Shown in pieces: positions 306 through 15,592 of a stretch of DNA of 64,000 nucleotides. Under the pieces are notes generated by a model. The model ran no database searches. It saw nothing but the letters and a program-made list of their open reading frames with translations, and was not told where the DNA came from. How positions within the stretch are numbered: the first letter of the stretch is position 1; the number at the start of each line of letters is the position of its first letter. The position numbers were made by a program, and so were the translations under genes. The stretch is from Bosea beijingensis (GTDB taxonomy: Bacteria > Pseudomonadota > Alphaproteobacteria > Rhizobiales > Beijerinckiaceae): the NCBI RefSeq assembly GCF_030758975.1, contig NZ_CP132359.1, positions 1,504,811 to 1,568,810 on the forward strand, in the 5' to 3' direction.

Positions 306-2357
306 ATGGCGTGGCGGATCGGGATCGATTCCGGTGGCACATTCACCGATGTCTGCCTCTTCGAGGACGCGACCGGCATGGTCGCGGTCTGGAAGGTGCC
401 CTCGACGCCCGACGATCCCTCCCGCGCCATCGCGCGCGGCACGCAGGAGGGCGTCGAGCGCGTCGGCGCCAGCCCCGCCGACATCGCCTATTTCGGCCAT
501 GGCACCACGGTCGGCACCAACGCCCTGATCCAGCATCGCGGCGTGAAGACGGGCCTGATCACCACCGAGGGCTTTCGCGACCTGATCGAGATCGGCCGGC
601 AGAAGCGGCCGGACCTCTACGACCTCCAGGCCGACAAGGCGCCGCCGCTGGTCACCCGAGACCTGCGCTTCGGCGTCGCCGAGCGCGTTCGCCATGACGG
701 CTCGATCGAGACGCCGCTCGACGAGGATGCCGTCCGGCAGGCGGCGCGGGCGCTGAAGGCGGAGGGCGTCAAGGCCGTCGCCATCGGATTCCTCTACGGA
801 TTCGTCCGGCCCGAGCATGAGGAGGCCGCCAAGCGCGTCGTCACCGAGGAATTCCCCGAGTCCTTCATCTGCGCCTCGCATGAGGTCGCGCCGGAGTTCC
901 GCGAGTACGAGCGCATCTCGACCGCGGTGGTCAACGCCTATCTCGGCCCGGTGATGCAGGGCTATATCCGCCGCCTCGCCGACCGCCTGAAGGAACTCGG
1001 CCTCAAGGCGGTGCCGCATCTGACGCAGTCCAATGGCGGCGTTATCGGCTTCGACATGGCGGCGCGCCTGCCGGTGCGCACGGTTCTCTCCGGTCCCTCG
1101 ACCGGCGTCGTCGCGGCGCAGGCGATCGGCGCCATGATCGGCATACCCAGCCTCATCACCTTCGACATGGGCGGTACCTCCTCGGACGTCGCCCTGCTCG
1201 ATGACGGCGAGGCCAAGCTCGCCTCCGAGGCCAATGTTCACGGCTATCCGATCAAGGCGCCGATGCTGGACATCCACACGGTCGGCGCCGGCGGTGGCTC
1301 GCTCGCCGCGATCGATTCCGGCGGGTTGCTCAAGGTCGGTCCGCGCTCGGCCGGCGCCGATCCCGGCCCCGTCTGCTACGGGCGCGGCGCGACCGAGCCC
1401 GCCGTCACCGACGCCAATGTCGTGCTCCAGACCCTGAACCCGACCCATCTGCTCGGCGGCCGCATGCCGATCGACCAGGCGCTGTCGAAGCAGGCGATCG
1501 GCCGCCTCGCCGATGAGCTCGGCCTCGACCTGATGGCGACGGCGCAGGGCATCATCTCGGTCGTCACCGCCAACATGGCCAAGGCGATCCGGGTCATCAG
1601 CGTCCAGCGCGGGCATGATCCGCGCGATTACGCGCTGGTTGCCTTCGGCGGGGCAGGGCCGCTGCATGCTGCGCGGCTCGCACGCGAACTCGACATGAAG
1701 CGCATCGTCGTGCCGCGCAATCCCGGCATCGGCTGCGCGCTAGGCCTGCTCCTGACCGATCTGCGCGCCAATTTCGCGACGACGCGATTGGCGACGCTCT
1801 CCGATGCACTGGTCCCCGACATGGCGGAGATCTTCGTCGCCTTGCAGGAACAGGCCGATCACTGGTTCGCGGAGGAGGGCGTGGCTTCGGCCGACCGTCG
1901 GCTGAAGCGCACCGCCGACCTGCGCTATCACGGCCAGAACTACGAACTCGCCATCGACGTGCCGGACGGGCCGATCACGCCCGCGACCATCGCGGCGCTC
2001 GCCGAGGGCTTCGCCGCCGCCCATAAACGGCTCTACGGCTTCGTCGCGGAAGGCGAGGCGGTTCAGCTCGTGACCTATCGCGTCGAGGCGGTCGGCCTCG
2101 TGCCCAAGGCCGCCTTCCGGCCGGAGCCCGATGCCGGGCCTGACGCCTCGCACGCCATCATCGGCAGCCGCGAGGTCTGGTTCCCCGAGGCCGGCGGCTT
2201 CGTCGCCTGCCCGATCTACGACCGCGACAAGCTGAAGTCGGGCAACCGCTTCGCCGGCCCGGCCATCGTCGAGCAGATGGATTCGACGACCGTGCTGCTT
2301 CCGGGCATGACCGCGACGGTCGAGCCCTATCTCAACCTGATCCTGGAGATGCCGTGA
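306..2357 (+). CDS. hyuA: Hydantoinase/oxoprolinase subunit A (HyuA family)
   Basis: 683 residues. It starts with an ASKHA-type phosphate loop (GIDSGGTFTD) and has a second one near residue 290 (DMGGTSSDV). A glycine-rich GAGGGS and GADPGPVCYGRG stretch follows, all characteristic of the ATP-binding subunit of 5-oxoprolinase, N-methylhydantoinase and acetone-carboxylase-like enzymes. A strong ribosome site GGGAGG at 291-296 supports the ATG at 306. The stop overlaps the start of hyuB, as is typical for the two-subunit enzyme. The family couples ATP hydrolysis to opening of a cyclic amide; 5-oxoproline or a hydantoin is likely, but the substrate is not shown by the sequence. Confidence 0.9.
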   Translation: MAWRIGIDSGGTFTDVCLFEDATGMVAVWKVPSTPDDPSRAIARGTQEGVERVGASPADIAYFGHGTTVGTNALIQHRGVKTGLITTEGFRDLIEIGRQKRPDLYDLQADKAPPLVTRDLRFGVAERVRHDGSIETPLDEDAVRQAARALKAEGVKAVAIGFLYGFVRPEHEEAAKRVVTEEFPESFICASHEVAPEFREYERISTAVVNAYLGPVMQGYIRRLADRLKELGLKAVPHLTQSNGGVIGFDMAARLPVRTVLSGPSTGVVAAQAIGAMIGIPSLITFDMGGTSSDVALLDDGEAKLASEANVHGYPIKAPMLDIHTVGAGGGSLAAIDSGGLLKVGPRSAGADPGPVCYGRGATEPAVTDANVVLQTLNPTHLLGGRMPIDQALSKQAIGRLADELGLDLMATAQGIISVVTANMAKAIRVISVQRGHDPRDYALVAFGGAGPLHAARLARELDMKRIVVPRNPGIGCALGLLLTDLRANFATTRLATLSDALVPDMAEIFVALQEQADHWFAEEGVASADRRLKRTADLRYHGQNYELAIDVPDGPITPATIAALAEGFAAAHKRLYGFVAEGEAVQLVTYRVEAVGLVPKAAFRPEPDAGPDASHAIIGSREVWFPEAGGFVACPIYDRDKLKSGNRFAGPAIVEQMDSTTVLLPGMTATVEPYLNLILEMP

Positions 2358-3961
2358 TGACCGCGACCGCATCCGTCAGCGTCGACCCGATCACCGTCGA
2401 GGTCATCGGCTCCTCCTTCGCCTCCATCGCCGAGGAGATGGGCGAAGCCCTGGTCAAGGCGAGCTACTCGACCAACATCAAGGAGCGTCGCGACTGCTCG
2501 ACCGCGCTCTTCGACGTCGAGGGCCAGACGCTCTGCCAGGCCGAGCATATCCCGATGCATCTCGGCTCCTTCATCGGCATCATCCCGCATATCCTGAAGC
2601 GCCACTCCGTCGCGGACATGAAGCCGGGCGACGTCTTCATCGGCAACGATGCCTATGAAGGCGGCGGCACCCATCTGCCGGATATCGTGCTGGCCGAGCC
2701 GGTCTTCCACGAAGGCGTCATGATCGCCTGGGCCGTCAACACGGCGCACCACTCGGATTTCGCCGATCGCGGCCACGCCCATATCTATCAGGAGGGCCTG
2801 CGCATCCCGCCGATCCGCCTCTATGACGGCGGCGTGCTGATGAAGGACGTGCAGGAGCTGATCCTGCTCAACTGTCAGGTCCCGCGCGAGCGACTCTCGG
2901 ACCTGCGCGCCCAGATGGCGGCGAACCGTCTCGGTGTCGAGCGGTTGCGCGCACTCTGCGACAAATACGGCCGCGACACGGTGCTCGCCGCCGGCAAGGC
3001 CTTGCAGGACTATGCCGAGCGCAAGATGCGCGCCGGCATCGCCTCGATCCCCGACGGCACCTATCGCTTCTCGGATTCCTTCGACAATCCCGAGATCGAC
3101 GAGCCGCTGACCTTCTCGGTCGCGATCACCGTCGCGGGCGAGGAAATGACGCTCGCCTTCGACTCGCCGCCGCAGATGCGCGCTGGCTTCAACATGGTCT
3201 ACACCGCGCTGCTCTCGACCGTGTATTATGCGGTCAAGACCGTGGCCGACCCGACCATTCCGCCCAATGCGGGGCTCGCCCGGCCGCTCACCGTCACCGC
3301 GACCGAAGGCACGGTGCTGAACTGCGTGCATCCGGCCGCCGTCAACGGCCGCATCGCCGCCTGCCAGCGCGTGGTCGACCTGATCCATGGCGCGCTCGCG
3401 CAGGCCGTGCCGGACCGGGTGATCGCGGCCTGTTCGGGCGCGGTTGCCTCGGCCACCTTCGCCGGCGAGCAGCCCGGCAGCGGCGAGCTCTGGGTCTATC
3501 TGGAGACGATCGGCGGCGGCTCCGGCGCCCGCACCAACAAGGACGGCCTCCACGGCGTCCATGTCCACATGACCAACACCTCGAACCTGCCGGTCGAGGC
3601 GCTGGAGCTGGAATATCCGCTGACCCTGCTGCGCTACGAACTGGTCGACGGTTCGGGCGGGGATGGCCGCCAGCGCGGCGGCATGGGGCTCCGCCGCGTC
3701 TATCGGGCGGAGGCGCCGTGTCGTCTGAGCGTCGATAATTCGCGCCTGACCTCGCGGCCCTGGGGGCTTGCCGGCGGCGGCGAGGGGCAGGGCGGCTCCT
3801 TCTCATTCAGCGAGGGCGTCGCACCCTTCTTCAAGGGCGACGGCGCATTGGAGAAAGGCCAGATCGCCGAGATCATCACGCCCGGCGCCGGCGGTTATGG
3901 CCCGGCCGCGGAGCGCAGTGCCGAGGCGAGGGCGCGAGACAAGGCCGAGCAGCGGGGGTGA
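2357..3961 (+). CDS. hyuB: Hydantoinase/oxoprolinase subunit B (HyuB family)
   Basis: 534 residues from the ATG at 2357, which overlaps the hyuA stop (TGATG). A GTG three bases upstream is a possible alternative start. The protein matches the HyuB family along its length: an N-terminal DPITVEVI, an internal GGGTHLPD, NTAHHSDF with paired His, an IGGGSGAR stretch and a C-terminal TPGAGGYG. With HyuA it forms the ATP-dependent cyclic-amide hydrolase in the cytoplasm. It is the last gene of the plus-strand cluster; the following palindrome (3994-4127) may act as a transcript end. Confidence 0.9.
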   Translation: MTATASVSVDPITVEVIGSSFASIAEEMGEALVKASYSTNIKERRDCSTALFDVEGQTLCQAEHIPMHLGSFIGIIPHILKRHSVADMKPGDVFIGNDAYEGGGTHLPDIVLAEPVFHEGVMIAWAVNTAHHSDFADRGHAHIYQEGLRIPPIRLYDGGVLMKDVQELILLNCQVPRERLSDLRAQMAANRLGVERLRALCDKYGRDTVLAAGKALQDYAERKMRAGIASIPDGTYRFSDSFDNPEIDEPLTFSVAITVAGEEMTLAFDSPPQMRAGFNMVYTALLSTVYYAVKTVADPTIPPNAGLARPLTVTATEGTVLNCVHPAAVNGRIAACQRVVDLIHGALAQAVPDRVIAACSGAVASATFAGEQPGSGELWVYLETIGGGSGARTNKDGLHGVHVHMTNTSNLPVEALELEYPLTLLRYELVDGSGGDGRQRGGMGLRRVYRAEAPCRLSVDNSRLTSRPWGLAGGGEGQGGSFSFSEGVAPFFKGDGALEKGQIAEIITPGAGGYGPAAERSAEARARDKAEQRG

Positions 3962-3993: not shown

Positions 3994-4127
3994 TTGTCAT
4001 TCCGGGGCTTCGCGTAGCGAAGAGCCCGGAACCCACGACCGGGCGAGCCCTTTGTCGATGGCGCTTGCGATCGCTCACCCGGTCGTGGGTTCCGGGTTCG
4101 CGCCTATGGCGCGCCCCGGAATGACAA
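3994..4127. repeat. Long palindromic intergenic repeat, family A (copy 1)
   Basis: Outer arms TTGTCATTCCGGGGC and GCCCCGGAATGACAA are exact inverted repeats. Internal arms (CCCGGAACCCACGACCGGG against CCCGGTCGTGGGTTCCGGG) can pair as well, so almost the whole element can fold into one long hairpin. A close relative lies at 61531-61665 and a truncated one at 48248-48285. It sits between the convergent ends of hyuB and the ABC ATPase gene, where a hairpin could end transcription from both sides. Confidence 0.85.
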
Positions 4128-4140
4128 ATGGCGGTGCCGC

Positions 4141-5238
4141 TTAGGCAGCCAGCCACAACAGCGCATGCGGCGACAGCCTCAGCGTCGCTCCGCTGCCGAC
4201 CTCGAACAGCCCGCTGCCAGATTGGAAGGGCACGTCTACTGCCACTTCCGTCGTGCCGATGCGGACGCCGTAGCGCACGCTCGCGCCGAGGAATTCGCGG
4301 TTGGCGACGGTGCAGGGCAGCGCCAGCATCCCGTCCCCGGCCGGGCCCGCATCACCGAGACTGGCATGCTGCGGCCGGAAGACCAGCTTGGCGCCGTCCG
4401 GCACCTGCGCCTCCGCCGGAACCGGCACGCGAGTCCCGCCCTCGATCTCGAAGACCCGGGTCCCGCCGCTGCCGGTGAGTTTCCCACTTAGGATATTGGC
4501 GGTGCCGAGGAAGCCGGCGACGAACAGGTTCGCCGGGTGCTCGTAAAGCTCCATCGGCGTCCCGACCTGCTGCACGATGCCGTCATTCATCACGGCGATC
4601 CGGTCGCAGATCGTGTTCGCCTCCTCCTGGTCATGGGTGACGAAGATCGTGGTCAGGCCGAGCCGCTGCTGCAGGTCGCGCAGTTCGCGGCGAACCTGCA
4701 CGCGCATCTTGGCGTCGAGATTGGAGAGCGGCTCGTCGAGCAGCAGCACCTTGGGCTCGACCGCGACGGTGCGCGCCACGGCGACGCGCTGCTGCTGGCC
4801 GCCCGAGAGCTGCGAGGGCCGCCGCTCGGCGAGATGGGCGAGGCCGACGAGGCCCAGCGCCGCCTCGACGCGCCGCTCGACCTCGGCGCGCTTCACGCCG
4901 CGCTCCTCCAGCCCGAAGGCGACGTTGCGGCGCACCGTCATGTGCGGCCAGAGCGCATAGGACTGGAACACCATGCCGACATCGCGCTTCCACGGCGGCA
5001 GGTCGGTGATCGGCTTGCCGCCGATCCTGACTTCGCCGGTATCGGCATGGTTGAAGCCGGCGATCAGGCGCAGCAGCGTGGTCTTGCCACAGCCGGAGGG
5101 GCCGAGGAAGGCGAAGAATTCGCCCGGCTTGATCGCCAGATTGACGTCCTTGAGCACATGGTTGGTGCCGTAGGACAGGTTGACGCCTTCGATATCGACG
5201 GCGACGGCGGGCGTGGTCAGGGAGACGGTCGCGTTCAT
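4141..5238 (-). CDS. ABC transporter ATP-binding protein (FbpC/PotA-like)
   Basis: 365 residues. Walker A GPSGCGKTT, the Q-loop in MVFQSYALWPH, signature LSGGQQQRVA, Walker B LLLDEPLSNLD and the switch His in VTHDQEE are all present in the first 220 residues. A C-terminal TOBE-type domain (about 285-365) follows. This is the CUT1/iron/polyamine class of importer ATPases acting on the inner face of the membrane. It lies 2 bp after the fused permease and is the last gene of the transporter operon beginning at 8485. The substrate is probably that of the linked binding protein, not necessarily iron. Confidence 0.9.
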   Translation of the reverse strand: MNATVSLTTPAVAVDIEGVNLSYGTNHVLKDVNLAIKPGEFFAFLGPSGCGKTTLLRLIAGFNHADTGEVRIGGKPITDLPPWKRDVGMVFQSYALWPHMTVRRNVAFGLEERGVKRAEVERRVEAALGLVGLAHLAERRPSQLSGGQQQRVAVARTVAVEPKVLLLDEPLSNLDAKMRVQVRRELRDLQQRLGLTTIFVTHDQEEANTICDRIAVMNDGIVQQVGTPMELYEHPANLFVAGFLGTANILSGKLTGSGGTRVFEIEGGTRVPVPAEAQVPDGAKLVFRPQHASLGDAGPAGDGMLALPCTVANREFLGASVRYGVRIGTTEVAVDVPFQSGSGLFEVGSGATLRLSPHALLWLAA

Positions 5239-5240
5239 GA

Positions 5241-6956
5241 TCAGTGGCCCATTCCCTTGGCCTTCTGGCTACGTTCGATGATGAGATGGGAGAGGAAGGT
5301 GCAGGCCGCGACGAGGATCACCGCGACGACGCCGAGCGCGGCACCGGGGCCGCGCCCCGCCGCAGACTGCATGAAGACATAGAGCCCGTAGGCCAGCGGC
5401 GCGTCCGAGTTGGACTGTACCAGCATCAGCGTCGCCGAGAGCTCGACGGCGGCCGTCGAGAACGAAGTGACGAAGCCGGCGAGGATGCCGCCCGCCATCA
5501 GCGGCACGACGATGCGCCGGACCGTGCGCGCCTTGGTGGCTCCGAGGTTCTCGGCGGCTTCCTCGAGCGAGACCGAGATCTGCTGGAGCGCCGCATAGCA
5601 GGCGCGCAGGGCATAGGGCAGGCGCCGGATCGCCAGCGCCATCACGATGGTGATCCAGAGCGCGGCGAGCGGCGTCCCGTCCGGCAGGGTGATGCCATAG
5701 AAGGTCCTGAGATAACCGATGCCGAGCACCACGCCGGGAATGGCGAGCGCCGCGGTTGCCATCCAGTCGAGCCATTCGCGGCCGATCAGCTTGGTGCGCA
5801 GCACGAGATAGGCGATGGCGACGCCGAGCACGACGTCGATGCCGCCGGCGATCGAGGCATAGATCAGCGTGTTCTTGATGTAGACCGAGCTTTCGCCGAA
5901 AACGCGGCCGTAATGCGCGATCGTGTAGGCGTCGGGCAGGGGCGAGAACGACCAGATCGTCGCGAAGGAGAGCAGCAGCAGGCCCAGATGCGGCGCCAGC
6001 ACCAGCGCCAGGATCAGGATGACGATGCCGTAGCCGAACACGGCCTCCATCGGGGTCATCATCCGCTTGGCGAGCCCGCCGCCGCCGCGCTGCGTCGTGG
6101 CGTAGTCGCGACCCTTCAGCGCCCTTGCCGAGAGCCACATTGCCAGCACCGAGGCGATGATCAGCACGACCGAAATGACGTAGCCCATCGGGTCGGCGAT
6201 GCCGATCGAGGTCACCCGGAGGTAGGCCTGCGGCGCCAGCATGTCCTTGACGTTGAGCAGCAGCGGGGTCGCGAGATCGTCGAAGACCTTGACGAAGACC
6301 AGCGAGGCGCCGGCGAGATAGCCCGGCATGGCGAGCGGGAAGACGATCCGCCGGAACAGCCGGAAACCGGAGGAGCCGAGATTCTGCGCGGCTTCTTCCA
6401 TGGCGCGGTCGACATTGCGGAGCGCCGCCGAGAGATTGATCAGGATGAACGGGAAATAGTGGACGGACTGGACGAAGATGACGCCGTTCAGCCCCTCCAT
6501 GAAGTCGATCTTGAAGCCGAACCAGTCGTCCAGCAGCAGATTGACCGAGCCGTTGCGGCCGAAGAAGAGCTGCATCGCCACCGCGCCGACGAAGGGCGGC
6601 ATGATCAGCGGCAGGAAGCCGAGCGTCTGGACGATGGCCGCGCCGCGGAAGACGAAGCGCGTCGTGAGATAGGCCAGCGGCAGGGCGAAGACCGAGGCCC
6701 AGACCACCGACATCGCAGAGACATAGAACGAGTTCCACAGCGAGCGCATGAACAGCTCGGTGCGGACGAAATCGTAGAAATTCACCAGCGTGAAGGTCGA
6801 GGTGCCCTTCTCGGTGAAGGCGACATAGATCACCGTCGCCACCGGCAGCACCAGGAACATCAGGAGAAAGGCGGCGATCGCCAGTGCCAGCGCGATCTGG
6901 CCGGGTGTGCCGGCGATGCGACGGGGGCGGGGAGCCGAGGTCGGAATGGCTGTCAT
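5241..6956 (-). CDS. ABC transporter permease, fused double-domain (FbpB-like)
   Basis: 571 residues from the ATG at 6954-6956; upstream in-frame codons run into the palindrome at 6970-7135 and are not likely to be translated. The protein contains two tandem BinT-type permease halves, each with about six membrane helices and an EAA-like loop (EEAAQNLGSSGFRLFRRIVFP near residue 190; EEAAENLGATKARTVRRIV near 465). This fusion is characteristic of the FbpB/AfuB class that imports ferric iron or phosphorylated compounds. It is expected to form the channel with the ATPase at 4141-5238 and the binding protein at 7148-8485. Confidence 0.88.
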   Translation of the reverse strand: MTAIPTSAPRPRRIAGTPGQIALALAIAAFLLMFLVLPVATVIYVAFTEKGTSTFTLVNFYDFVRTELFMRSLWNSFYVSAMSVVWASVFALPLAYLTTRFVFRGAAIVQTLGFLPLIMPPFVGAVAMQLFFGRNGSVNLLLDDWFGFKIDFMEGLNGVIFVQSVHYFPFILINLSAALRNVDRAMEEAAQNLGSSGFRLFRRIVFPLAMPGYLAGASLVFVKVFDDLATPLLLNVKDMLAPQAYLRVTSIGIADPMGYVISVVLIIASVLAMWLSARALKGRDYATTQRGGGGLAKRMMTPMEAVFGYGIVILILALVLAPHLGLLLLSFATIWSFSPLPDAYTIAHYGRVFGESSVYIKNTLIYASIAGGIDVVLGVAIAYLVLRTKLIGREWLDWMATAALAIPGVVLGIGYLRTFYGITLPDGTPLAALWITIVMALAIRRLPYALRACYAALQQISVSLEEAAENLGATKARTVRRIVVPLMAGGILAGFVTSFSTAAVELSATLMLVQSNSDAPLAYGLYVFMQSAAGRGPGAALGVVAVILVAACTFLSHLIIERSQKAKGMGH

Positions 6957-6969
6957 GGATGGGTGCCGG

Positions 6970-7135
6970 GTGTCATCCCGTGCGCGCCGCGGCATGGAAA
7001 TGCCGCTGCGCAGACACGGGACCGTTGTCAGGAAAAGGCGCTTACGAGGCGCGCTTCAGGAAAAGGCGCCTGCTGGTCGCGCGGTCCCGTGTCTGCGCCG
7101 CAGCGTTCCACGCTGCAGCGCACACGGGATGACAC
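6970..7135. repeat. Nested inverted repeat (cruciform-like) inside the ABC transporter operon
   Basis: Outer arms GTGTCATCCCGTG and CACGGGATGACAC pair exactly. Inside are a second pair (GCAGACACGGGACCG against CGGTCCCGTGTCTGC) and two small hairpins (GCGGCAT-GGAA-ATGCCGC and GCAGCGT-TCC-ACGCTGC). The centre carries TCAGGAAAAGGCGC twice as a direct repeat. It lies between the binding-protein gene stop (7148) and the permease start (6956). In mRNA it may lower expression of the downstream membrane genes relative to the binding protein, a common arrangement in uptake operons. Confidence 0.8.
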
Positions 7136-7147
7136 GCTCCCGACGAG

Positions 7148-8485
7148 TTACTTCGCCGCCTTCAGCGCCTCTTCCGCCTTGGCCTTGGCCTTGGCGTAGT
7201 TGTCGCGGGCGAAGCTTGCCCATTGCGCCTCGACCTCGGCCTGGCGGGCGCCCTTCTCCTTGCCGCCGGTGAAGGCGCCGCGCAGCTCCGGGCTCGCGGC
7301 CTGCGCCTCTGTCACCGGCATGGCGGCGAGCAGCACGCGGGCTTCCTCGGCCATCGCCTTGGCCTTGTCGTTCGGCTTCTTGGCCAGCGCCGCATCGACC
7401 TCGTGCAGCACCTTGTTGACGCCCTTCAGCCCGTCGAGCTGGAAGGAGATGATCTGGTCGAACAGTGTGTCGACCACCGCGGTGCGGCCTTCCGACTTGT
7501 CGACGTCGAAGCCGATCATCTTCTGGAAGCGCGGATCGGTGAAGGGATTCGGATAGTCGGCACCCGCCTTGGCATAGACGGCCGGGTTGACCGGCAGGCG
7601 GCGGATGCCGGGCTCGAGCAGCACTTCCTGGCCGGTCGGCGACAGCAGGAACTCGATGAAGGCTTCGGCTGCGGCCTTGTTCGGCGGGTTCGCGATGATG
7701 CCGACATTGGCCGGCACGACCGTCGTCACGCTCGGATAGACGAACTTGACCGGGAAGCCGGAGGCCTGGGCCGAGAAGGCGAAGAAGTCGATGACGATGC
7801 CGACGCCGACCTGCCCGGAATTGACCTGCTCCGGCACGCCGAAGGAGCGCTCGTTGATCGAGCGGAAATTGCCGGCCATCTCCTTGATGGTCCGCCAGCC
7901 CTTGTCCCAGCCTTCGCCCTGCAGGATCGTCTCGATCGTCAGATGCGTCGTGCCGGAGCGCGACGGTGCCGCGATCGAGACATGGTCGTAGAACACCGGC
8001 TTGGCGAGGTCCTGCCATTCCTTCGGCTCGGGCAGCTTGTTGGCCTTGGCGTAGCGGTCGTTCCACATGATGCCGTAGCCGGAGGCCGCGAAGCCGAAAT
8101 AGAAGCCCGCCGGATCGTTGATCGGATAGGAGCCGATCTTCTCGGGGATGCCGGTCGCCTTGGGCTTGTAGGCGGTGAGCAGCTTCTTGCCCTTCAGCAC
8201 CTCGAAGGCGTCGGGCGCCGAGGCCCAGAACAGGTCGACCTGGTTGTTGGCCTTGGTTTCCTCGACGTATTTCACGCCGGCATTGGTGTTGCGGTTCTGC
8301 ACTTCGAGCGTGACGCCCGGCACCGCCTTCTCGAAGGCCTTCTTGATCGGGTCGGTGACGTCCTTGGAGAAGGAGGTCACCACCGTGACCTTGCCGGCCG
8401 GCGCCTGTGCCAGCGCGATGGTCGTAAACGAGGCGCTCAGCGACAGGCCGAGAGTGGCCGCGAGCGCGGTCCGACGATTCAACAT
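7148..8485 (-). CDS. ABC transporter periplasmic substrate-binding protein (FbpA/AfuA/PgtC-like)
   Basis: 445 residues with an N-terminal export signal (NRRTALAATLGL, cleavage probably after ALAQA). The mature part opens with KVTVVTSFSKD and has DLFWASAPDAFE and RSGTTHL blocks. The same blocks occur in the sensor-linked protein at 11971-13347, so the two are paralogues. The family includes ferric-iron, hexose-phosphate (AfuA) and phosphoglycerate (PgtC) proteins. It is the first gene of the transporter operon and is preceded by a sigma-54 promoter at 8542-8557, so expression is likely inducible by the regulator just upstream. The C-terminal 100 residues are Ala/Lys-rich and helical. Confidence 0.87.
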   Translation of the reverse strand: MLNRRTALAATLGLSLSASFTTIALAQAPAGKVTVVTSFSKDVTDPIKKAFEKAVPGVTLEVQNRNTNAGVKYVEETKANNQVDLFWASAPDAFEVLKGKKLLTAYKPKATGIPEKIGSYPINDPAGFYFGFAASGYGIMWNDRYAKANKLPEPKEWQDLAKPVFYDHVSIAAPSRSGTTHLTIETILQGEGWDKGWRTIKEMAGNFRSINERSFGVPEQVNSGQVGVGIVIDFFAFSAQASGFPVKFVYPSVTTVVPANVGIIANPPNKAAAEAFIEFLLSPTGQEVLLEPGIRRLPVNPAVYAKAGADYPNPFTDPRFQKMIGFDVDKSEGRTAVVDTLFDQIISFQLDGLKGVNKVLHEVDAALAKKPNDKAKAMAEEARVLLAAMPVTEAQAASPELRGAFTGGKEKGARQAEVEAQWASFARDNYAKAKAKAEEALKAAK

Positions 8486-8541
8486 GGCTTCCTCCCGAAG
8501 CAGATTTTTTGGCTCGACGTCGAGGTCGATGCTTTCCGCTC

Positions 8542-8557
8542 AGCAACCGCGATGCCA
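8542..8557 (-). promoter_or_regulatory. Sigma-54 (-24/-12) promoter of the ABC transporter operon
   Basis: Read on the minus strand the bases are TGGCATC-GCGG-TTGCT, matching the sigma-54 consensus TGGCACG-N4-TTGCW, with the invariant GG and GC exactly 10 bases apart. It is 57 bp upstream of the binding-protein ATG. The gene just upstream encodes an enhancer-binding protein with the sigma-54 contact motif GAFTGA, which makes a chance match unlikely. Confidence 0.8.
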
Positions 8558-8610
8558 AGTGCGAGCGGTATTGATTTCGTTGCGGAATTCGGGAGGAGGG
8601 GTTTTCAGTT

Positions 8611-8670
8611 CCCCAATTTCGGGGGTGTAGCGGTAACCTGCCAACACCCCTGATGGGTCATTGCGGTAAC
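8611..8670 (-). promoter_or_regulatory. Candidate enhancer sites for the NtrC-type regulator
   Basis: Two identical 8-mers (GTTACCGC on the minus strand) lie at 8630-8637 and 8663-8670, 33 bp apart, which is about three helical turns. They are roughly 75-120 bp upstream of the -24/-12 promoter, the usual distance for an upstream activating sequence. An inverted CCCC-N6-GGGG lies at 8611-8624 and a GGTGT...ACACC pair flanks the nearer 8-mer. Which of these is the actual operator cannot be decided by eye. Confidence 0.5.
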
Positions 8671-8678
8671 ATCGTCTC

Positions 8679-10034
8679 TCAGTCCGCGAGCGCCGCCGAT
8701 CCGCTCAGGCCGTAGCGGCGCATCTTCAGGTAGAGCGTCTTGCGAGTGATGCCGAGCGCTGCGGCCGTGACGCCGATGCGGCCGTTATGGCGCTTCAGCG
8801 CGGCCCCGATCCCGTCCGCCTCGGCGACCGCGACCAGCTCCTCCAGCGTGCGCTCCGCACCATCGGAGGCCGTCGCGCTGGCATCCGCATCCTCGAAATC
8901 CTCGTCCATGCCGAGCAGGCTCCGCTCGGCGGCATTGCGCAATTCGCGGACATTGCCCGGCCAGTCCTGCCGCGCCAGCCTTTGCAGCAGGTCGCGCCCC
9001 AGCGGAGGAGCGGAACGGCCGACACGGGCAGCGGCGAGCGCGAGGAAGTGCTGGAACAGCAGCGGAATGTCCTCGCGTCGGTCGCGCAGGGGCGGCAGGC
9101 GCAGCGTTATGACGTTGAGCCGATAAACGAGGTCCTCACGGAAGCCGCCAGCCTTGGCGAGCGCGGCGAGGTCGGTCTTGGTCGCGGCGACGATGCGGAT
9201 ATCGACGGCGATCTCCTTGTTGGAGCCGAGGCGCTCGATCCGGCGCTCCTGCAAAGCGCGCAGCAGGCGCACCTGAGCCGCCATCGGCATCGACTCGATC
9301 TCGTCGAGGAAGAGCGTGCCGCCGCTGGCATGCTCGATCTTGCCGATCCGCCGCTCGCGCGCGCCTGTAAAGGCGCCGGCCTCGTGTCCGAACAGCTCGC
9401 TCTCGATCATCGTCTCGGGGATCGCCCCGCAGTTCACCGCGACGAAGCGTCCGCCGCGGCGATTGCCGAGATCGTGCAGCGCGCGGGCCGCGACCTCCTT
9501 GCCGGTCCCGGTCTCGCCGAAGAGCAGCACATCGGTATCCGCATCGGCGAGCAGGGCAAGCCGGCTGCGCAGGCGCGCGACGGCCGGCGAATGCCCGACG
9601 ACACGCGCAGCCCACGGGTCCTCGGAATGAGCCCCGGCCTTGAGCGAACGGTTCTCGATGATCAGCCGGCGGTATTCGCTGGCGCGCCGGATCGTCTCGA
9701 TCAGGCGGACGGGGTCGGCGGGCTTTTCGACGAAATCCCAGGCACCTTCGCGGATCGCCTTAACTGCCATGGGAACATCGGCATGGCCGGTGATCAGCAC
9801 GACGGGGATCTCTGCATCGATCGCGGTCACGGCCGAGAGCAGTCCGAAGCCGTCGCGGCCGGGCATGCGGACATCGCTGACCAGCACGGCAGCGGCATCG
9901 CGGCCAAGCTCTGCCAGGGCGGCATCGCCGGAGCGCTTGGCGGTGACTGTGAAGCCTTCGAGTTCCAGCGTCAGCCGCCAGGCTTCGAGTACCTCGGCAT
10001 CGTCATCGACGAGGACGACCTTGGGAGCGCTCAT
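8679..10034 (-). CDS. Sigma-54-dependent response regulator (NtrC/PgtA/DctD class)
   Basis: 451 residues in three domains. A receiver domain (about 5-120) has the acidic pocket D10-D12 and phospho-acceptor D54 in SDVRMPG. An AAA+ domain (about 145-375) has Walker A GETGTGKE, the sigma-54 contact motif GAFTGA, Walker B GGTLFLDEIE and arginine-rich sensor motifs. A Fis-type helix-turn-helix (about 405-445) follows (HNGRIGVTAAALGITRKTLY). Its start overlaps the end of the kinase gene by 4 bp, so the two form one translationally coupled pair. Its likely target is the promoter at 8542-8557. Confidence 0.93.
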   Translation of the reverse strand: MSAPKVVLVDDDAEVLEAWRLTLELEGFTVTAKRSGDAALAELGRDAAAVLVSDVRMPGRDGFGLLSAVTAIDAEIPVVLITGHADVPMAVKAIREGAWDFVEKPADPVRLIETIRRASEYRRLIIENRSLKAGAHSEDPWAARVVGHSPAVARLRSRLALLADADTDVLLFGETGTGKEVAARALHDLGNRRGGRFVAVNCGAIPETMIESELFGHEAGAFTGARERRIGKIEHASGGTLFLDEIESMPMAAQVRLLRALQERRIERLGSNKEIAVDIRIVAATKTDLAALAKAGGFREDLVYRLNVITLRLPPLRDRREDIPLLFQHFLALAAARVGRSAPPLGRDLLQRLARQDWPGNVRELRNAAERSLLGMDEDFEDADASATASDGAERTLEELVAVAEADGIGAALKRHNGRIGVTAAALGITRKTLYLKMRRYGLSGSAALAD

Positions 10035-11974
10035 GCGTCGATTTCCAGCGGGGCCATGACGTGGGCTGTCGTCCCTTCGAGCGTGATCAGGAAGCGGGTG
10101 CCGGCAGGGCCGGTCTCTGCGACCGCGAGCGTGCCGCCGAGGTCCTTGATGATGTTGTAGGACAGCGAGAGCCCGAGGCCGAGCCCCGAGCCGACCGGCT
10201 TGGTCGTGAAGAACGGGTCGAAGATGCGTTCGAGATGGGCCCGGTCGATGCCGGGGCCGCTATCGGCGACCCAGATCTCGACCTTGTGGCCGTTCCGACG
10301 CGCGCCGATCGCGATCGCGGATTCCTCCATGCCGGTGACGGCATCGAGCGCATTGGCGATGAGATTGACCAGAACCTGCTCAAGCCGGATCTCCTCTGCA
10401 TGGACATGGAGGCGCCCGGAAGGCAGATCGCGCGTGAGCGTGACGCGCTCAGCCGCGAATCGCGGCTCGAACAGCGACAGCGCGGTTTCGATGGTGTCGC
10501 CGACCGCGACCGGAGTCAGCACCACGCCGGGCTTGCGGGCAAAGCGTCTGAGATGCGCGATCAGGTCGGCGGCGCGCGTCGTCAGCGCCTGGATGCGGCC
10601 GATCGCCTTCTGCGCCTCCTCAGGCCGGCCCCGCTCCAGCAGCAGCGCGCCGTTATGGGCATGGGAGCGGATCGCGGCGAGCGGCTGGTTGAGCTCGTGG
10701 CTCAGGCCCGCCGCCATCTGCCCCAGCGCGGCGAGCTTGGCCGCCTGGATCAGGTCGTCGCGCGTCTGCCGGAAGACGGTGAGCGCGCGAGTGAGGTCGC
10801 CGAGTTCGTCATTGCCCGCCTTCGGTAGCAGCGCCGAGGACTGGCCGCTGGCGATGCTGGTCGCAGCTTCGGTCAGGACGCGCAGGCGCGCCACGAGATG
10901 GCGCCGGACATAGAACCAGCCGATCAATAGCGCGCCGATGAGCGAGGCCGCGGCGATGGCGAGCAGCAGGTTGCGGCCGAGCCGGATCGCCTCGGCCGAG
11001 CGGTCGGCGGCCTCCTTCGCCACGGCCTCGGTCCGCTGCACCTCCTGCGAAACCAGTGAGCCCAGTTCCGTGACGAGGCGGCGGCTTTCCGAGATCAGGC
11101 GCTGCGCATCGGCGAGCGCGGCGAGTTCCGAACGCTTGAGGCCCGGCAGGCCGGTCGTCGTATCGGCGAGTCCGATCAGGCGCTGCGTGATCTGCCGGAC
11201 CGTGATCGTGTCGGGCCAGCCGGTGAGCGCCTTGGCCTCGACCTCGAGCTGGTCGACCGCCTCGCCGATGACATGGCCGGTCTGCTCCATGTCCTCGCGG
11301 GTCTGCACCGTGCCGAGGCGCCCGAACAGGCCGACGATCAAATTGGCCTGGGCATTGAGCGTCATCAGCGCTTCGCTCTTGCGGGTCTCCTCGCGGATCG
11401 TGTTCGGCTTGGCGGAGGACGACGCTTCGCTGCTGAGCTGGCCGAGCGCCGTATCGATATTGAAGCGGGCATCGTCGGTCAGCGGCTCGATCTCGTCGAT
11501 GAGATCGGCCTGGAGCCAGCGCAGCTCCTCGCTGACGCCGCGGATGCGCTCGGCCAGCGTGAAGCGCCGCCCCGCGACATCATCGATCGCGCCGAGATTG
11601 CGGCGTATCTCGGCCGCAACGGCGGTCAGGGCGGGCGCGTCGAAGCCGCTGCCGGTGCGCTCGGATAGCACCTTGTCGAGTTCGCTCAAGCGCTCTCCCA
11701 CCACGCGCCGGCCGCGCTCGTAGCTGTCGCGCCGTTCGGCATTGGCCAGTTCCGGCATGCCGGCGATGACGCGGGCGCTGGCTTCGGCCAGCCTTGCGGC
11801 GGAGGCGAGGCCGGGCAGATGCTCGCGTGCGATAGCCGCCAGCTCCTTGCTGAGGCGCTCATAGGAGATCACGCCGACGATGCCGGCACCGACCGCGAAG
11901 AGGCCGACGCCGAGGAAGGCTGCGATCAAGCGCCCGCCGATGCCGAAACGCCGCTTGGGCAGGGCAGGCGTCAT
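10031..11974 (-). CDS. Membrane sensor histidine kinase (PgtB-like)
   Basis: 647 residues. One membrane helix near 15-38 and another near 333-353 enclose a periplasmic helical sensor region of about 290 residues. A HAMP domain follows, then the H-box (SHELNQPLAAIRSH, His near 425), N-box NLIANALDA, G1 DSGPGI, F-box FDPFFTTK and G2 GSGLGLGLSL. The large helical periplasmic domain resembles kinases that read a liganded binding protein (TorS or PgtB type) rather than the ligand itself. The gene overlaps both neighbours by 4 bp, which fits stoichiometric production with the binding protein at 11971-13347 and the regulator at 8679-10034. Confidence 0.92.
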   Translation of the reverse strand: MTPALPKRRFGIGGRLIAAFLGVGLFAVGAGIVGVISYERLSKELAAIAREHLPGLASAARLAEASARVIAGMPELANAERRDSYERGRRVVGERLSELDKVLSERTGSGFDAPALTAVAAEIRRNLGAIDDVAGRRFTLAERIRGVSEELRWLQADLIDEIEPLTDDARFNIDTALGQLSSEASSSAKPNTIREETRKSEALMTLNAQANLIVGLFGRLGTVQTREDMEQTGHVIGEAVDQLEVEAKALTGWPDTITVRQITQRLIGLADTTTGLPGLKRSELAALADAQRLISESRRLVTELGSLVSQEVQRTEAVAKEAADRSAEAIRLGRNLLLAIAAASLIGALLIGWFYVRRHLVARLRVLTEAATSIASGQSSALLPKAGNDELGDLTRALTVFRQTRDDLIQAAKLAALGQMAAGLSHELNQPLAAIRSHAHNGALLLERGRPEEAQKAIGRIQALTTRAADLIAHLRRFARKPGVVLTPVAVGDTIETALSLFEPRFAAERVTLTRDLPSGRLHVHAEEIRLEQVLVNLIANALDAVTGMEESAIAIGARRNGHKVEIWVADSGPGIDRAHLERIFDPFFTTKPVGSGLGLGLSLSYNIIKDLGGTLAVAETGPAGTRFLITLEGTTAHVMAPLEIDA

Positions 11975-13347
11975 GGCCGCGCCCCGGTCAGGCTCTCGTC
12001 GCGCCAGCCCAAAGCCGCGAGCCGCTCGGCGGCCTGTTGCAGGCCGTCGCCGGCTTCCGTTGCGCGGGCCGCGATCGCAGTCCTGATACCGGCTTCGATC
12101 CGAGCCTGTTCCTCGGGCACGGGCAGGCCGCGCGGCACGCGGGCGAGGTTGCGGAAACGCCCGGGCTCTCCGAGTTCCGCGGCCGAGATCGGAGGCTGCG
12201 TCAGTGCGGCCCGCGCCTGGGTCAGCAGCTTCGCGGCCTGTTCGTCAGGGCGCGTGAGCAGCGCCGCTTCCATCGCCTGGAGGCTGCGCCAGAGCCTGGC
12301 ATGCTCGGTGCGGCGGAAGGTGATCCACTCATCGAAGATCAGGTTGACCAGTTCGTAGCGCCCGGCCGAGAGGCCGGCGTCGAAGCCTGTCCGGTTGAAG
12401 ATGCCTTCGGTCTCCGAGAGATGCGGCGGCGTCTCGTCCGGTCCATAGGCCGAGGGCGAGACGGCGAGGCGCCCGATCCGGGGCTCGCGCAGCATCGTCT
12501 GGCCTTCGCGGGAAAGCACGAAATCGATGAAGAGCTCAGCCTCCTTCGGGTTGGGCGAAGTCGCGAGCCTTGCGATGCTGGCAGGTGCGAACAGGGTCTC
12601 GCCCGGCAGCACGAAACGGTTGCCTTCGCCCTCGGCGCTCTTGGCCTCCGTCAGGAAGTCGATGGAGATACCGATGCCGAAGCGGCCGCGGGCAACGCCA
12701 GCGGTGACGCCGAAACTGCGCGCCGTGATCGTCGCGAGATTGCCGCCGATCGCCGACCAAAGCGCCCAACCGCGTTCCCAGCCGAGCGATTGCAGCAGCG
12801 CCTCGACCATCAGATGCGTCGTGCCGGAGCGGGCAGGCGAGGTCAGGCCGATATGGCCGGCATAGACCGGCGCGGCGAGATCGGCCCAGTTGCGCGGCAC
12901 GGGCAGGCCGCGCCCCGCCAGATAGGCGGGGTTGTAGACCAGCCCGTAGCCCGAGACGGCGAAGCCGAGATAGCGGTGATCGGGATCGTTGACCGGATAG
13001 CCGGCGATGGTCTCCGGCGCACCGGTCGCCCGCGGCTGCACAGGTGCCAGCAGGTTCGCGCGCTTCAGCAACTCGAAGGCGTCCGGCGCCGAGGCCCAGA
13101 ACAGGTCGGCTTCCGGCCGCTTCTGCGTGCGGATATCGACGACCGCCGCCGTCGTCTTGCGCTGCACCACCTCGACGGCGATGTCGGGATGCCGGTTGCG
13201 GAAGGCGTTGCGGAACGGCTCGAAGAAGGAGGGCGGGAACGAGGTGATGATCTGGACGCGCCGCCCCTCGGCCATGCCGGCGGCCGGCCAGCCGAAAGCC
13301 AGCAGGGCGAGGAGGACAAGCCTGATCGTGGCGGCGCAGCGACCCAT
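11971..13347 (-). CDS. Periplasmic binding protein dedicated to signalling (PgtC-like)
   Basis: 458 residues with a Sec signal peptide (VLLALLAFGWPAAGMAEG). The mature part (ITSFPPSFFEPF, DLFWASAPDAFE, RSGTTHL) is paralogous to the transporter binding protein at 7148-8485. It is encoded not with the permease but directly before the histidine kinase, with a 4-bp overlap. In the phosphoglycerate (Pgt) system a homologous periplasmic protein acts with the kinase in ligand detection; the same role is inferred here. It is the first gene of the regulatory operon. Confidence 0.85.
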   Translation of the reverse strand: MGRCAATIRLVLLALLAFGWPAAGMAEGRRVQIITSFPPSFFEPFRNAFRNRHPDIAVEVVQRKTTAAVVDIRTQKRPEADLFWASAPDAFELLKRANLLAPVQPRATGAPETIAGYPVNDPDHRYLGFAVSGYGLVYNPAYLAGRGLPVPRNWADLAAPVYAGHIGLTSPARSGTTHLMVEALLQSLGWERGWALWSAIGGNLATITARSFGVTAGVARGRFGIGISIDFLTEAKSAEGEGNRFVLPGETLFAPASIARLATSPNPKEAELFIDFVLSREGQTMLREPRIGRLAVSPSAYGPDETPPHLSETEGIFNRTGFDAGLSAGRYELVNLIFDEWITFRRTEHARLWRSLQAMEAALLTRPDEQAAKLLTQARAALTQPPISAAELGEPGRFRNLARVPRGLPVPEEQARIEAGIRTAIAARATEAGDGLQQAAERLAALGWRDESLTGARP

Positions 13348-13475: not shown

Positions 13476-14405
13476 TTACGCTCCCGTCGCGGCCTTCGAC
13501 TGATGCTGCCGGGCGATCAGGTTGAGCGCGTTCAGCGTCACCTGGGCCGCGAGCAGCGCCGACATGCCGCCGACATCATGCGGCGGGCTGATCGTGTTGA
13601 TGTTGACGCCCACCAGATTGAGCCCGGCGCAGGCTTCCAATACCGCCAGCCCCTCCCGCGAGGTCGCGCCACCCCAGGTCGGCGTGCAGACGCCCGGTGC
13701 GACCGAGGGGTCGAAGAAATCCATGTCGTAGGAGAGATAGACCGGCCGGTCGCCGATATGGGCGCGGATCTCGGCAAAGACCTTGGCGATGCCGCGTTCC
13801 AGCAATTCGGCAAGCGGGATCACGTTGTAGCCGAGGCTGCGCCCGTACTCGCCGACGCCGGGCAGCATCGTCGTGCCGCGCATGCCGATCTGGTAGGAGC
13901 GGGTTGCGTCGACGAGTCCTTCCTCGGCGGCGCGGCCGAAGGCGGTCGCGGTGTTGTAGCCCTCGATCGGATAGGCGTCGGTATGGGCGTCGATATGGAT
14001 GGTGACGAGATCGGGATAGACCCGGTGCAGCGCCCGCATCTCCGGCAGCGCGATGGCGCCGTCGCCGCCGAGCGTCACCGCGACGGCCCGCGTCTCGGCG
14101 ATGGCGCCGACCGCCGCCTCGATCGCGACATAGGAGGCTTCGAGATCGCCGGGGCTGACCTTGGCATCGCCGACATCGACCACGCCGAGCGCCTCCAGCG
14201 GGTTGATGCCGTTGACGAAGTCGAAGGCGCGCAGCAGCAGCGACTGCTCGCGGATCGAGGACGGCCCGAGCCTGGAGCCGACGCGCTGCGGATGGGTGCC
14301 GCAATCGAAGGGCAGGCCGAGGACCACCGCCTTGGCGTCGCCGATCTCGGTGCGGTGCGGGACGCCCATGAAGGTCTGGGCGAGCGAAAACGGCGCCGTT
14401 GTCAT
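13476..14405 (-). CDS. Arginase/agmatinase-family ureohydrolase with a replaced metal ligand
   Basis: 309 residues from the ATG at 14403-14405. The ureohydrolase motifs are HIDAHTD (about 137-141) and YDMDFFDPSVAPG (about 227), which supply five of the usual metal ligands, and GVCTPTWGG. The first metal motif, normally GGDHS, is GGDGA here (about 116), so the His ligand of the binuclear Mn site is missing. The enzyme could use another residue, a different metal or a different chemistry. It is the last gene of a polyamine-type ABC operon, so its substrate is probably a guanidino or ureido compound brought in by that transporter. Calling it agmatinase would go beyond the evidence. Confidence 0.82.
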   Translation of the reverse strand: MTTAPFSLAQTFMGVPHRTEIGDAKAVVLGLPFDCGTHPQRVGSRLGPSSIREQSLLLRAFDFVNGINPLEALGVVDVGDAKVSPGDLEASYVAIEAAVGAIAETRAVAVTLGGDGAIALPEMRALHRVYPDLVTIHIDAHTDAYPIEGYNTATAFGRAAEEGLVDATRSYQIGMRGTTMLPGVGEYGRSLGYNVIPLAELLERGIAKVFAEIRAHIGDRPVYLSYDMDFFDPSVAPGVCTPTWGGATSREGLAVLEACAGLNLVGVNINTISPPHDVGGMSALLAAQVTLNALNLIARQHQSKAATGA

Positions 14406-14473
14406 CAATAGTCCTGTGTCTTGGTCGGAGAGGCAGGGACGGGCGGCGCGATGCCGCCCGTCAGTGTCGAGGC

Positions 14474-15592
14474 TCAGGACGCGATCGCGTCCATGTAGCG
14501 GGCGAGGATGGTGGCGTAGTGCTGCGCGTACCACTCGTTGTCGACGGCGACCTGGCGCGCGAAATTCTCCGGCGATCCGCAGTCGAGCGCCTTCATCTCG
14601 GCCGGCACCATCGCGGCGGCGGCCGGGTTGACCGGCCCGTTGCCGACACGCTTGAACAGTTCGACCTGGCTCTTCGGGTCCTGCGCCGCGGCGATGAACT
14701 TCCAGGCGCCGGCCTTGGCCGGGTTGCCCTTCGGCACGATCCAGGCGCCGGGGAACAGGATGCCGTCCTCGAAGGTGAACTTGATGTGGTCGCCGACCTC
14801 CTTGGCGAGCAGCATCGAGCGCGTGTGCCACAGGTTCCCCATCACGACCTCCTGGTTGCGGAAGAGCTGCTGGCTCTCCGCGCCGGTGGTCCAGAAGATC
14901 GTGTGCGGCTTGATCTCCTTGATCTTGGCGAGCGCCCGGTCGACATCGATCGGGTAGATCTTGTCGCGGCTGACGCCGTCGGCGAGCAGCGCCGCCTCCA
15001 GCATGCCCTCGATATTGTTGCGGAGCGTGCGCTTGCCCGGGAATTCCTTGACGTTCCAGAAGTCCTTCCAGTTCTTCGGCGCCGGCCCCTTCAAGGCCTT
15101 GGCGTCGTAGGTCAGCACGAAGGAATAGAGATAGGCGCCGACGCCCCAGTCCGAGCGATGCGCGGCGCGGACCTTGTCCTGCGACACGATCGACCAGTCG
15201 ACCTTCTCGAGCAGGTTCTGCCGGCCGAGCTCGATCGAGGCCGGCACGGTGCGGTCGCAGACGTCCCAGGTAACAGTGCCGCTCTCGACCATAGCCTTGA
15301 TCTTGCCGGAGCTCGGCCCCGAGCCGTTGATCAGCGCCTTCGCGCCGGGATTGGCCGCGTTGAAGGGCTGGGCCCAGATCGCGTCATAGGCCGGCACGGC
15401 ATCGCCGCCCCAGTTTACGACGACGATCTCGCCGGTCTGCGCATGGGCCGGCGTCAGGCGCAGGCCAGCCGGGATCGCACCCAGCATGGCCAGCGCCTGC
15501 AGGAAGCGACGGCGATGCACGCGCTTGCCCTCGGTCTCCCGGCGCAGGATCGCCAGGCAGTCGTCACGGAATTCCTGATGCTCTCTGGTCAT
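14474..15592 (-). CDS. ABC transporter substrate-binding protein (PotD/PotF-like)
   Basis: 372 residues. A long N-terminal signal has a twin-arginine pattern (RRRFLQALAML, about residues 26-37) and a likely cleavage site after PAHAQ, so Tat export is likely. The mature protein (EIVVVNWGGDAVPAYDAIW) belongs to the spermidine/putrescine-type family that captures cationic linear amines or opines. It is encoded 19 bp after the PotC-like permease and before the ureohydrolase. Confidence 0.87.
   Translation of the reverse strand: MTREHQEFRDDCLAILRRETEGKRVHRRRFLQALAMLGAIPAGLRLTPAHAQTGEIVVVNWGGDAVPAYDAIWAQPFNAANPGAKALINGSGPSSGKIKAMVESGTVTWDVCDRTVPASIELGRQNLLEKVDWSIVSQDKVRAAHRSDWGVGAYLYSFVLTYDAKALKGPAPKNWKDFWNVKEFPGKRTLRNNIEGMLEAALLADGVSRDKIYPIDVDRALAKIKEIKPHTIFWTTGAESQQLFRNQEVVMGNLWHTRSMLLAKEVGDHIKFTFEDGILFPGAWIVPKGNPAKAGAWKFIAAAQDPKSQVELFKRVGNGPVNPAAAAMVPAEMKALDCGSPENFARQVAVDNEWYAQHYATILARYMDAIAS

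Follow-up and report, generated by a model that had tools for sequence, protein, structure and literature searches.

A Pgt-like sensor, kinase and NtrC-family regulator that probably drive their own ABC importer in Bosea beijingensis and other bacteria

PgtC is described as the sensor of 3-phosphoglycerate (3PG) in Salmonella (PMC11077982), and PgtP as a transporter of phosphoglycerate and phosphoenolpyruvate (PMC10715179). In Escherichia coli DSM 30083 the genes pgtC, pgtB and pgtA lie in this order beside pgtP, which encodes a carrier of the major facilitator superfamily (MFS). The enteric regulators thus serve an MFS carrier and not an ATP-binding cassette (ABC) importer, as had been pointed out in the original prediction on the DNA analysed here, a stretch of 64,000 nucleotides (hereafter the window) from the Bosea beijingensis genome, a single contig of 5.56 Mb (NZ_CP132359.1, positions 1,504,811 to 1,568,810). 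The window holds six genes on the minus strand, for a sensor binding protein, a histidine kinase and an NtrC-family regulator followed by an importer binding protein, a permease and an ATPase. We consider it likely that here a Pgt-type three-component sensor drives a dedicated ABC importer of its own. The six genes are as follows.

13347-11971, minus strand: PgtC-like sensor binding protein, 458 amino acids, with a hydrophobic N-terminal stretch and a helical C-terminal extension
11974-10031, minus strand: histidine kinase, 647 amino acids, with a match to the TorS sensor domain (residues 53-166), HAMP, HisKA and HATPase_c
10034-8679, minus strand: NtrC-family response regulator, 451 amino acids, with a receiver, an AAA+ domain (Sigma54_activat) with GAFTGA and a Fis-type helix-turn-helix (HTH_8)
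8485-7148, minus strand: importer binding protein of the PgtC family, 445 amino acids, SBP_bac_6
6995-5241, minus strand: permease of two fused transmembrane units, BPD_transp_1 in two stretches
5238-4141, minus strand: ATPase, ABC_tran and TOBE_2

Both overlaps within the regulatory trio are of 4 bp, as had been predicted. The kinase matches the TorS sensor domain with an E value of 2.6e-11, and Pfam assigns SBP_bac_6 to both binding proteins. The permease reading frame opens at 6995, but its orthologues begin at ∼6956, which is probably the true start. Trio and importer are probably two transcription units, since the 193 bp between them hold a promoter and an enhancer-like site. With a GAFTGA regulator, a −24/−12 promoter, an upstream enhancer-like site and an rpoN gene found in the genome, the parts of an NtrC-type sigma-54 activation unit appear to be complete in genes and sites. 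The features of the control region are listed below.

8671-8656, minus strand: enhancer-like site TGTTACCGCAATGACC, with the sole exact TGTTACCGNNNTGACC in the genome
8638-8631, minus strand: second conserved block GGTTACCG, closer to the promoter, from an alignment of 16 Bosea promoters
8557-8542, minus strand: sigma-54 −24/−12 site TGGCATCGCGGTTGCT, the sole exact match in the window
8529-8514, minus strand: 5′-leader hairpin TCGAC-CTCGAC-GTCGA, with a loop nearly constant in Bosea and a varying stem

A search for the same six-gene order in other genomes had been suggested as a check, and the genes were found to co-occur in order across many genera. In a first search of 101 genomes (cut-off E≤1e-60), 40 Bosea genomes had a match among those listed; 16 of these hold all six genes together on one strand and 24 the importer genes only, and all 16 genomes with the sensor keep the six-gene order. 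An order-wide sample contained a relative in 33 of 397 genomes; the 29 that are not Bosea were all retrieved. Eleven of the 29 have the six genes in order (loci L128, L129, L130, L131, L136, L137, L138, L139, L140, L153 and L154 in our numbering), three have them divided across contig ends (L053/L054, L132/L133, L143/L144) and in 13 the importer has no trio next to it. A third set consists of named genomes, from which the best 80 of 544 encoded relatives were taken; these were ranked by similarity to the sensor, and their proportions are for that reason no measure of prevalence. Among them, 51 loci have a regulator gene upstream of a same-strand importer, 25 have the importer without the regulator and four (L186, L192, L194, L224) have no importer in reach. 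The 51 cassette loci include Bosea (eight loci, mostly repeating genomes of the first set), Microvirga, Chelatococcus, Ancylobacter, Mesorhizobium, Aminobacter, Ensifer, Sinorhizobium, Rhizobium, Pseudochrobactrum, Devosia, Telmatospirillum and Azospirillum. The sensor protein of Bosea robiniae DSM 26672 is 93% identical to that of the window. Spacing varies in Azospirillum, where regulator and importer are ∼3.9 kb apart in L201, L202 and L209 versus ∼0.3 kb in the other loci. At L052, L145 and L146 a similar regulator gene lies several kb away on the opposite strand, accompanied in L052 by a kinase match; the DNA upstream of these three importers has no sigma-54 site at up to one mismatch.

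The sigma-54 promoter placed ahead of the importer by the original prediction was examined with the pattern TGGCAY-N5-TTGCW, searched within 400 bp before the importer gene. Three matches with up to one mismatch occur in the window, versus 2.0 in shuffled sequences, and the motif is unconvincing by itself; the case is carried by the conservation of the site. An exact site lies 70–72 bp ahead of the importer gene in 16 of 16 cassette-bearing Bosea, whereas the best match in 24 of 24 cassette-free Bosea has at least three mismatches. In the named loci, a site with up to one mismatch is present in all 51 with the regulator (42 exact, at −28 to −87) and in none of the 25 without it, four of which have less than 400 bp of upstream DNA (25 bp in L237). 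The order-wide sample outside Bosea, three of whose cassette genomes reappear among the named loci, gave such sites in 9 of 14 cassette loci compared with 0 of 14 without an adjacent cassette. With 2.0 chance matches per window when both strands are counted, ∼0.006 such sites would be expected in 400 bp of a single strand. A tree of 119 importers contains 12 phylogenetically independent pairs that differ in the cassette, and in these contrasts the sigma-54 site differs in the same direction in ∼10, in the opposite direction in none and not at all in ∼2 (median p 0.002). A match at L081, which would have made it a cassette-free locus with a sigma-54 site, sits inside the gene.

The enhancer-like pattern, taken as TGTTAC-N5-TGACC, behaves similarly. 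It is exact in all 16 cassette-bearing Bosea and absent, even at one mismatch, from the 24 cassette-free Bosea; with up to one mismatch it is found in 45 of the 51 named loci with the regulator (29 exact; 37 of 43 when the Bosea rows are left aside), in none of 24 named loci without it (one row with short upstream DNA having been dropped) and in none of 75 shuffled sequences. The alignment of Bosea promoters resolves near-invariant blocks GATGTTACCG-N3-TGACCCATC and GGTTACCG upstream of the −24/−12 site. Twelve Bosea genomes were searched in full for TGTTACCGNNNTGACC, which has exactly one copy in each of seven cassette-bearing genomes, before the importer gene in all seven, and no copy in five cassette-free genomes. 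This suggests that the regulator may have one target, as judged from exact copies of TGTTACCGNNNTGACC, looser sites elsewhere not having been sought.

Some loci weigh against such a coupling of sensor and importer. Two of the 29 non-Bosea genomes have a trio without an importer of this type (L141, L142), and the same holds within reach of the trio at L192 and L194. The cassette locus L137 has no sigma-54 site, six of the 51 named cassette loci lack the enhancer at up to one mismatch, and at the cassette loci L138, L139, L153 and L154 the sigma-54 site has two mismatches, both in the −12 part. The putative −24/−12 site of these four loci is TGGCACGGCATTTGAG, without the usual GC of the −12 part. 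With these exceptions, the co-occurrence of the genes and a sigma-54 site that tracks the cassette support the self-contained sensor-plus-importer module that had been suggested.

We propose that a phosphate ester from outside the cell is bound in the periplasm by the sensor protein, which then attaches to the TorS-like region on the periplasmic side of the kinase. Judging from its domains, the kinase would phosphorylate the NtrC-family regulator. The regulator would bind TGTTAC-N5-TGACC, the conserved site pattern, and activate the −24/−12 promoter of the importer. The importer binding protein, permease and ATPase so produced would import the same or a like ligand, as the pocket residues common to the two binding proteins suggest, and in relatives the phosphate might be freed by phosphatases of the haloacid dehalogenase (HAD) and/or histidine families, whose genes are linked to the importer and run in the same direction.

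The two binding proteins are paralogues, as had been recognized, with 40% identity over 397 columns; the other relatives that the sensor protein has in this genome match it over part of the length, at 18–29% identity. A recent duplication inside Bosea was ruled out: a tree of 67 proteins separates sensor from importer proteins as old groups, with support of 74 for the importer group and none for the sensor group taken whole, and with longer sensor branches. The place of PgtC in this tree is left open because of its very long branch. Both proteins belong with PgtC in a broad sense, sharing its motifs SRS-x-T-H and RSFGV and its C-terminal extension. In the importer protein, sequence matches end near residue 331 of 445, and the more than 100 further C-terminal residues are helical in the model.

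By both sequence and fold (structure models with mean predicted local distance difference test scores of 89.0 and 85.8), the closest solved relatives of the two proteins are VcA0625, titled a glucose-6-phosphate (G6P) binding protein, AfuA and P5PA, followed by ferric- and phosphonate-binding proteins; the first fold neighbours are binders of G6P and of pyridoxal phosphate. P5PA is described as contacting phosphate through Thr37, Ser147, Gly148, Thr149 and Ser183 (PMC8427247). These align with T67, S177, G178, T179 and S214 of the importer protein (chain numbering offset by 38, counted by hand), which are invariant in 27 importer proteins, and the corresponding T65, S174, G175, T176 and S211 of the sensor are invariant in 26 sensor proteins. 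The arginines flanking the phosphate motifs, R176 and R213 in the importer protein and R173 and R210 in the sensor, are likewise invariant in both sets and are also present in PgtC; we infer that they may bind a carboxylate.

Of the 76 cassette loci that have room for them, 29 carry same-strand genes for HAD and/or histidine phosphatases directly past the ATPase gene; all 29 are among 52 non-Bosea rows, three of which repeat a genome. None follows the importer in 47 cassette-free loci, where other phosphatase families would be missed because the query phosphatases were drawn from cassette loci. At a cut-off of 180 bits, three of four HADs score as phosphoglycolate phosphatase (223.5, 217.4 and 197.4) and one falls short (164.9); the four histidine phosphatases tested passed no cut-off.

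Because the fold neighbours, the phosphate contacts, the arginines shared with PgtC and the downstream phosphatases point the same way when taken together, the ligand is likely a phosphate ester, and a small phosphocarboxylate such as phosphoglycerate, phosphoenolpyruvate or phosphoglycolate is the best single guess, to which we give an even chance. The ligands originally proposed are thus narrowed, with a phosphate ester supported by the phosphate residues, the fold neighbours and the phosphatases of relatives, a phosphoglycerate-like compound favoured and iron disfavoured. Counting against the main reading are the Asp of PgtC at the position of the phosphate-loop glycine, the breadth of the HAD family and the lack of any phosphatase of these families after the importer in the 24 Bosea rows examined.

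Rather unlikely is a hexose-phosphate importer, a sigma-54 counterpart of AfuABC or Uhp that takes G6P or a similar sugar, in spite of the conserved phosphate residues and of VcA0625 and AfuA among the best fold and sequence matches. The sugar ring is described as requiring His205 of AfuA (PMC4546632, PMC8427247), and this residue is replaced by Ile232 in the importer protein, although Asp206 is kept as D233. The two invariant arginines follow PgtC and not AfuA, and phosphoglycolate phosphatase is the best-scoring family for the linked HADs.

Sensor and importer ligands could also differ, since the two proteins diverged long ago, and this too counts against a simple substrate loop. The sensor would then respond to a phosphorus compound, such as a related metabolite, other than the one that the importer takes. 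The separate old groups and the longer sensor branches fit such a division, to which we give about one chance in five; the dedicated enhancer and the invariance of the five phosphate contacts and both arginines, in importer and sensor proteins alike, argue against it.

A phosphonate importer for 2-aminoethylphosphonate, of the PhnS2-T2-U2 kind, is improbable. The best NCBIfam matches include PhnS2, PhnT2 and PhnU2, the ligand would be phosphate-like and Pho-box-like sites occur in cassette-free relatives, but all three scores are below cut-off (109.5/392.75, 383.6/457.7 and 153/593.25 bits, respectively) and the linked HADs match phosphoglycolate phosphatase far better than phosphonatase (for example, 223.5 versus 57.2 bits). 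Least probable by far is an FbpABC-type importer of ferric iron whose sensor detects iron or an anion. The SBP_bac_6 family and distant matches to ferric-binding proteins might speak for it, but the Tyr-Tyr stretch of SfuA/YfuA, the pair that holds iron in ferric-binding proteins, has no counterpart in the sensor or importer protein, the phosphate-binding set is intact and phosphatases are linked in relatives.

The importer of Bosea occurs under two types of promoter. Pho-box-like sites with up to two mismatches to the Pho-box consensus precede it in 17 of 24 cassette-free Bosea compared with 0 of 16 cassette-bearing ones. This contrast is only suggestive, because it is not significant once kinship is taken into account (the box differs in ∼2 of 12 independent pairs, median p 0.5). 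The best box is reverse-oriented in 14 of the 17 loci, and boxes in the window's genome are forward at pstS, phoX and phnC (3 of 9 matches; genes named from translations). The reverse-box pattern has seven matches in seven Bosea genomes, four before importers, two before pstS (L157, L161) and one unassigned (L162). A literature search on the ChvI motif, as an alternative to PhoB, found nothing useful.

Neighbourhoods were compared by translated alignment between 15 of the 24 cassette-free loci and the eight named cassette-bearing loci of Bosea. The cassette-free loci L044, L047, L048 and L078 have a common upstream neighbourhood with the cassette loci L165, L166 and L168, and it stops ∼150–260 bp before the importer gene in the former versus ∼270–710 bp before the sensor gene in the latter. 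Seven Bosea loci have a gene in common that encodes a PHO4-family phosphate transporter in the one tested. The cassette locus L167 also has upstream neighbours in common with many loci, and downstream neighbours are alike in just one pair (L044/L167). No neighbours are shared between the cassette-free loci compared and L163, L164, L169 and L170, which include close kin of the window, so that a common chromosomal site for both promoter types is shown only in part of Bosea. The importer tree requires at least three changes in cassette presence within the genus.

Both Bosea promoter classes have the leader hairpin ahead of the importer, with a loop that is mostly CTCGAY and a varying stem. Of the 40 Bosea loci, 31 gave a row for comparison (16 with and 15 without the cassette; the hairpin of L080 looks spurious), and 130 of 135 stem pairs are formed in 27 distinct sequences, compared with 2–47% in slid controls. 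No Bosea-like leader hairpin was recognized in the remaining named loci.

Taken jointly, these observations admit a tentative reading, which we hold at somewhat less than an even chance, that one ancestral importer of small phosphocarboxylates has been wired in two exclusive ways, either under PhoB-type control by phosphate starvation or under a plug-in cassette that supplies enhancer and sigma-54 promoter together with sensor, kinase and regulator. The cassette would have replaced the Pho-box promoter, and in one lineage of Bosea would have done so at the same chromosomal site and above the shared RNA leader. The origin of enteric PgtC would lie in the binding protein of this family of ABC importers.

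Around the six genes, a hydantoinase A/B (oxoprolinase-like) gene pair at 306-3961 of the window is convergent with the importer operon. On the other side, at 13476-15592, the start of an open reading frame of the arginase/agmatinase family is probably internal, because the longest frame runs into the next, PotD-like gene. Long imperfect inverted repeats were seen by eye at 4004-4127, past the ATPase gene, and at 6970-7135, between the binding-protein and permease genes.

The conservation of the six-gene set in many related bacteria suggests an overlooked route of organic phosphorus scavenging; uptake of phosphorylated carbon compounds is little described in soil- and root-associated Alphaproteobacteria, and importers of this type are readily mistaken in annotation for iron or phosphonate transporters. 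With the promoter code of TGTTAC-N5-TGACC and a −24/−12 site, the module can be found and tested by sequence. A sigma-54 sensor that apparently acts on a single target might be used as a biosensor, and an importer that occurs under two types of control offers a natural comparison. We found no account of an ABC importer under a Pgt-type sensor in the open-access literature, which is weak evidence of novelty because subscription journals were largely outside the search.

Among the known systems, the putative 2-aminoethylphosphonate importer PhnS2-T2-U2 is alike in general importer architecture, with all three cut-offs failed here. TorT is a periplasmic binding protein encoded next to TorS, and the kinase described here likewise has a TorS-like sensor region and adjoins the gene of a periplasmic binding protein; the Tor system has a regulator of another class and, presumably, another ligand. 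UhpABC-UhpT resembles the proposed module in principle, in that a phosphate ester outside the cell acts through a kinase and a regulator to induce the transporter for its own uptake, as described in PMC4546632 and PMC10715179. UhpT, however, is an antiporter, whereas here the sensor is a binding protein and the transporter is an ABC importer preceded by a sigma-54 promoter. Uhp is not known to use sigma-54. AfuABC, VcA0625 and P5PA share the binding-protein fold and the phosphate contacts, but here the ring residue His205 is replaced, an extra C-terminal helical part is present, as in PgtC, and control is by a sigma-54 cassette. With Pgt, which responds to 3PG, 2-phosphoglycerate and phosphoenolpyruvate, the locus shares overlapping genes in the order binding protein, kinase and NtrC-family regulator; PgtC is 30–31% identical to both binding proteins, with common motifs and C-terminal extension, and the kinases are 26% identical. 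It differs from Pgt in its importer-type paralogue of PgtC and in its target, an ABC importer in place of the MFS carrier PgtP. The kinase scores 247.7 bits against a cut-off of 1000 bits for the PgtB model NF047794, and the regulator 298.4 bits against 650 bits for the PgtA model NF047793, both failing. The module thus appears to work like Pgt, yet it misses the curated Pgt cut-offs and acts on a different target.

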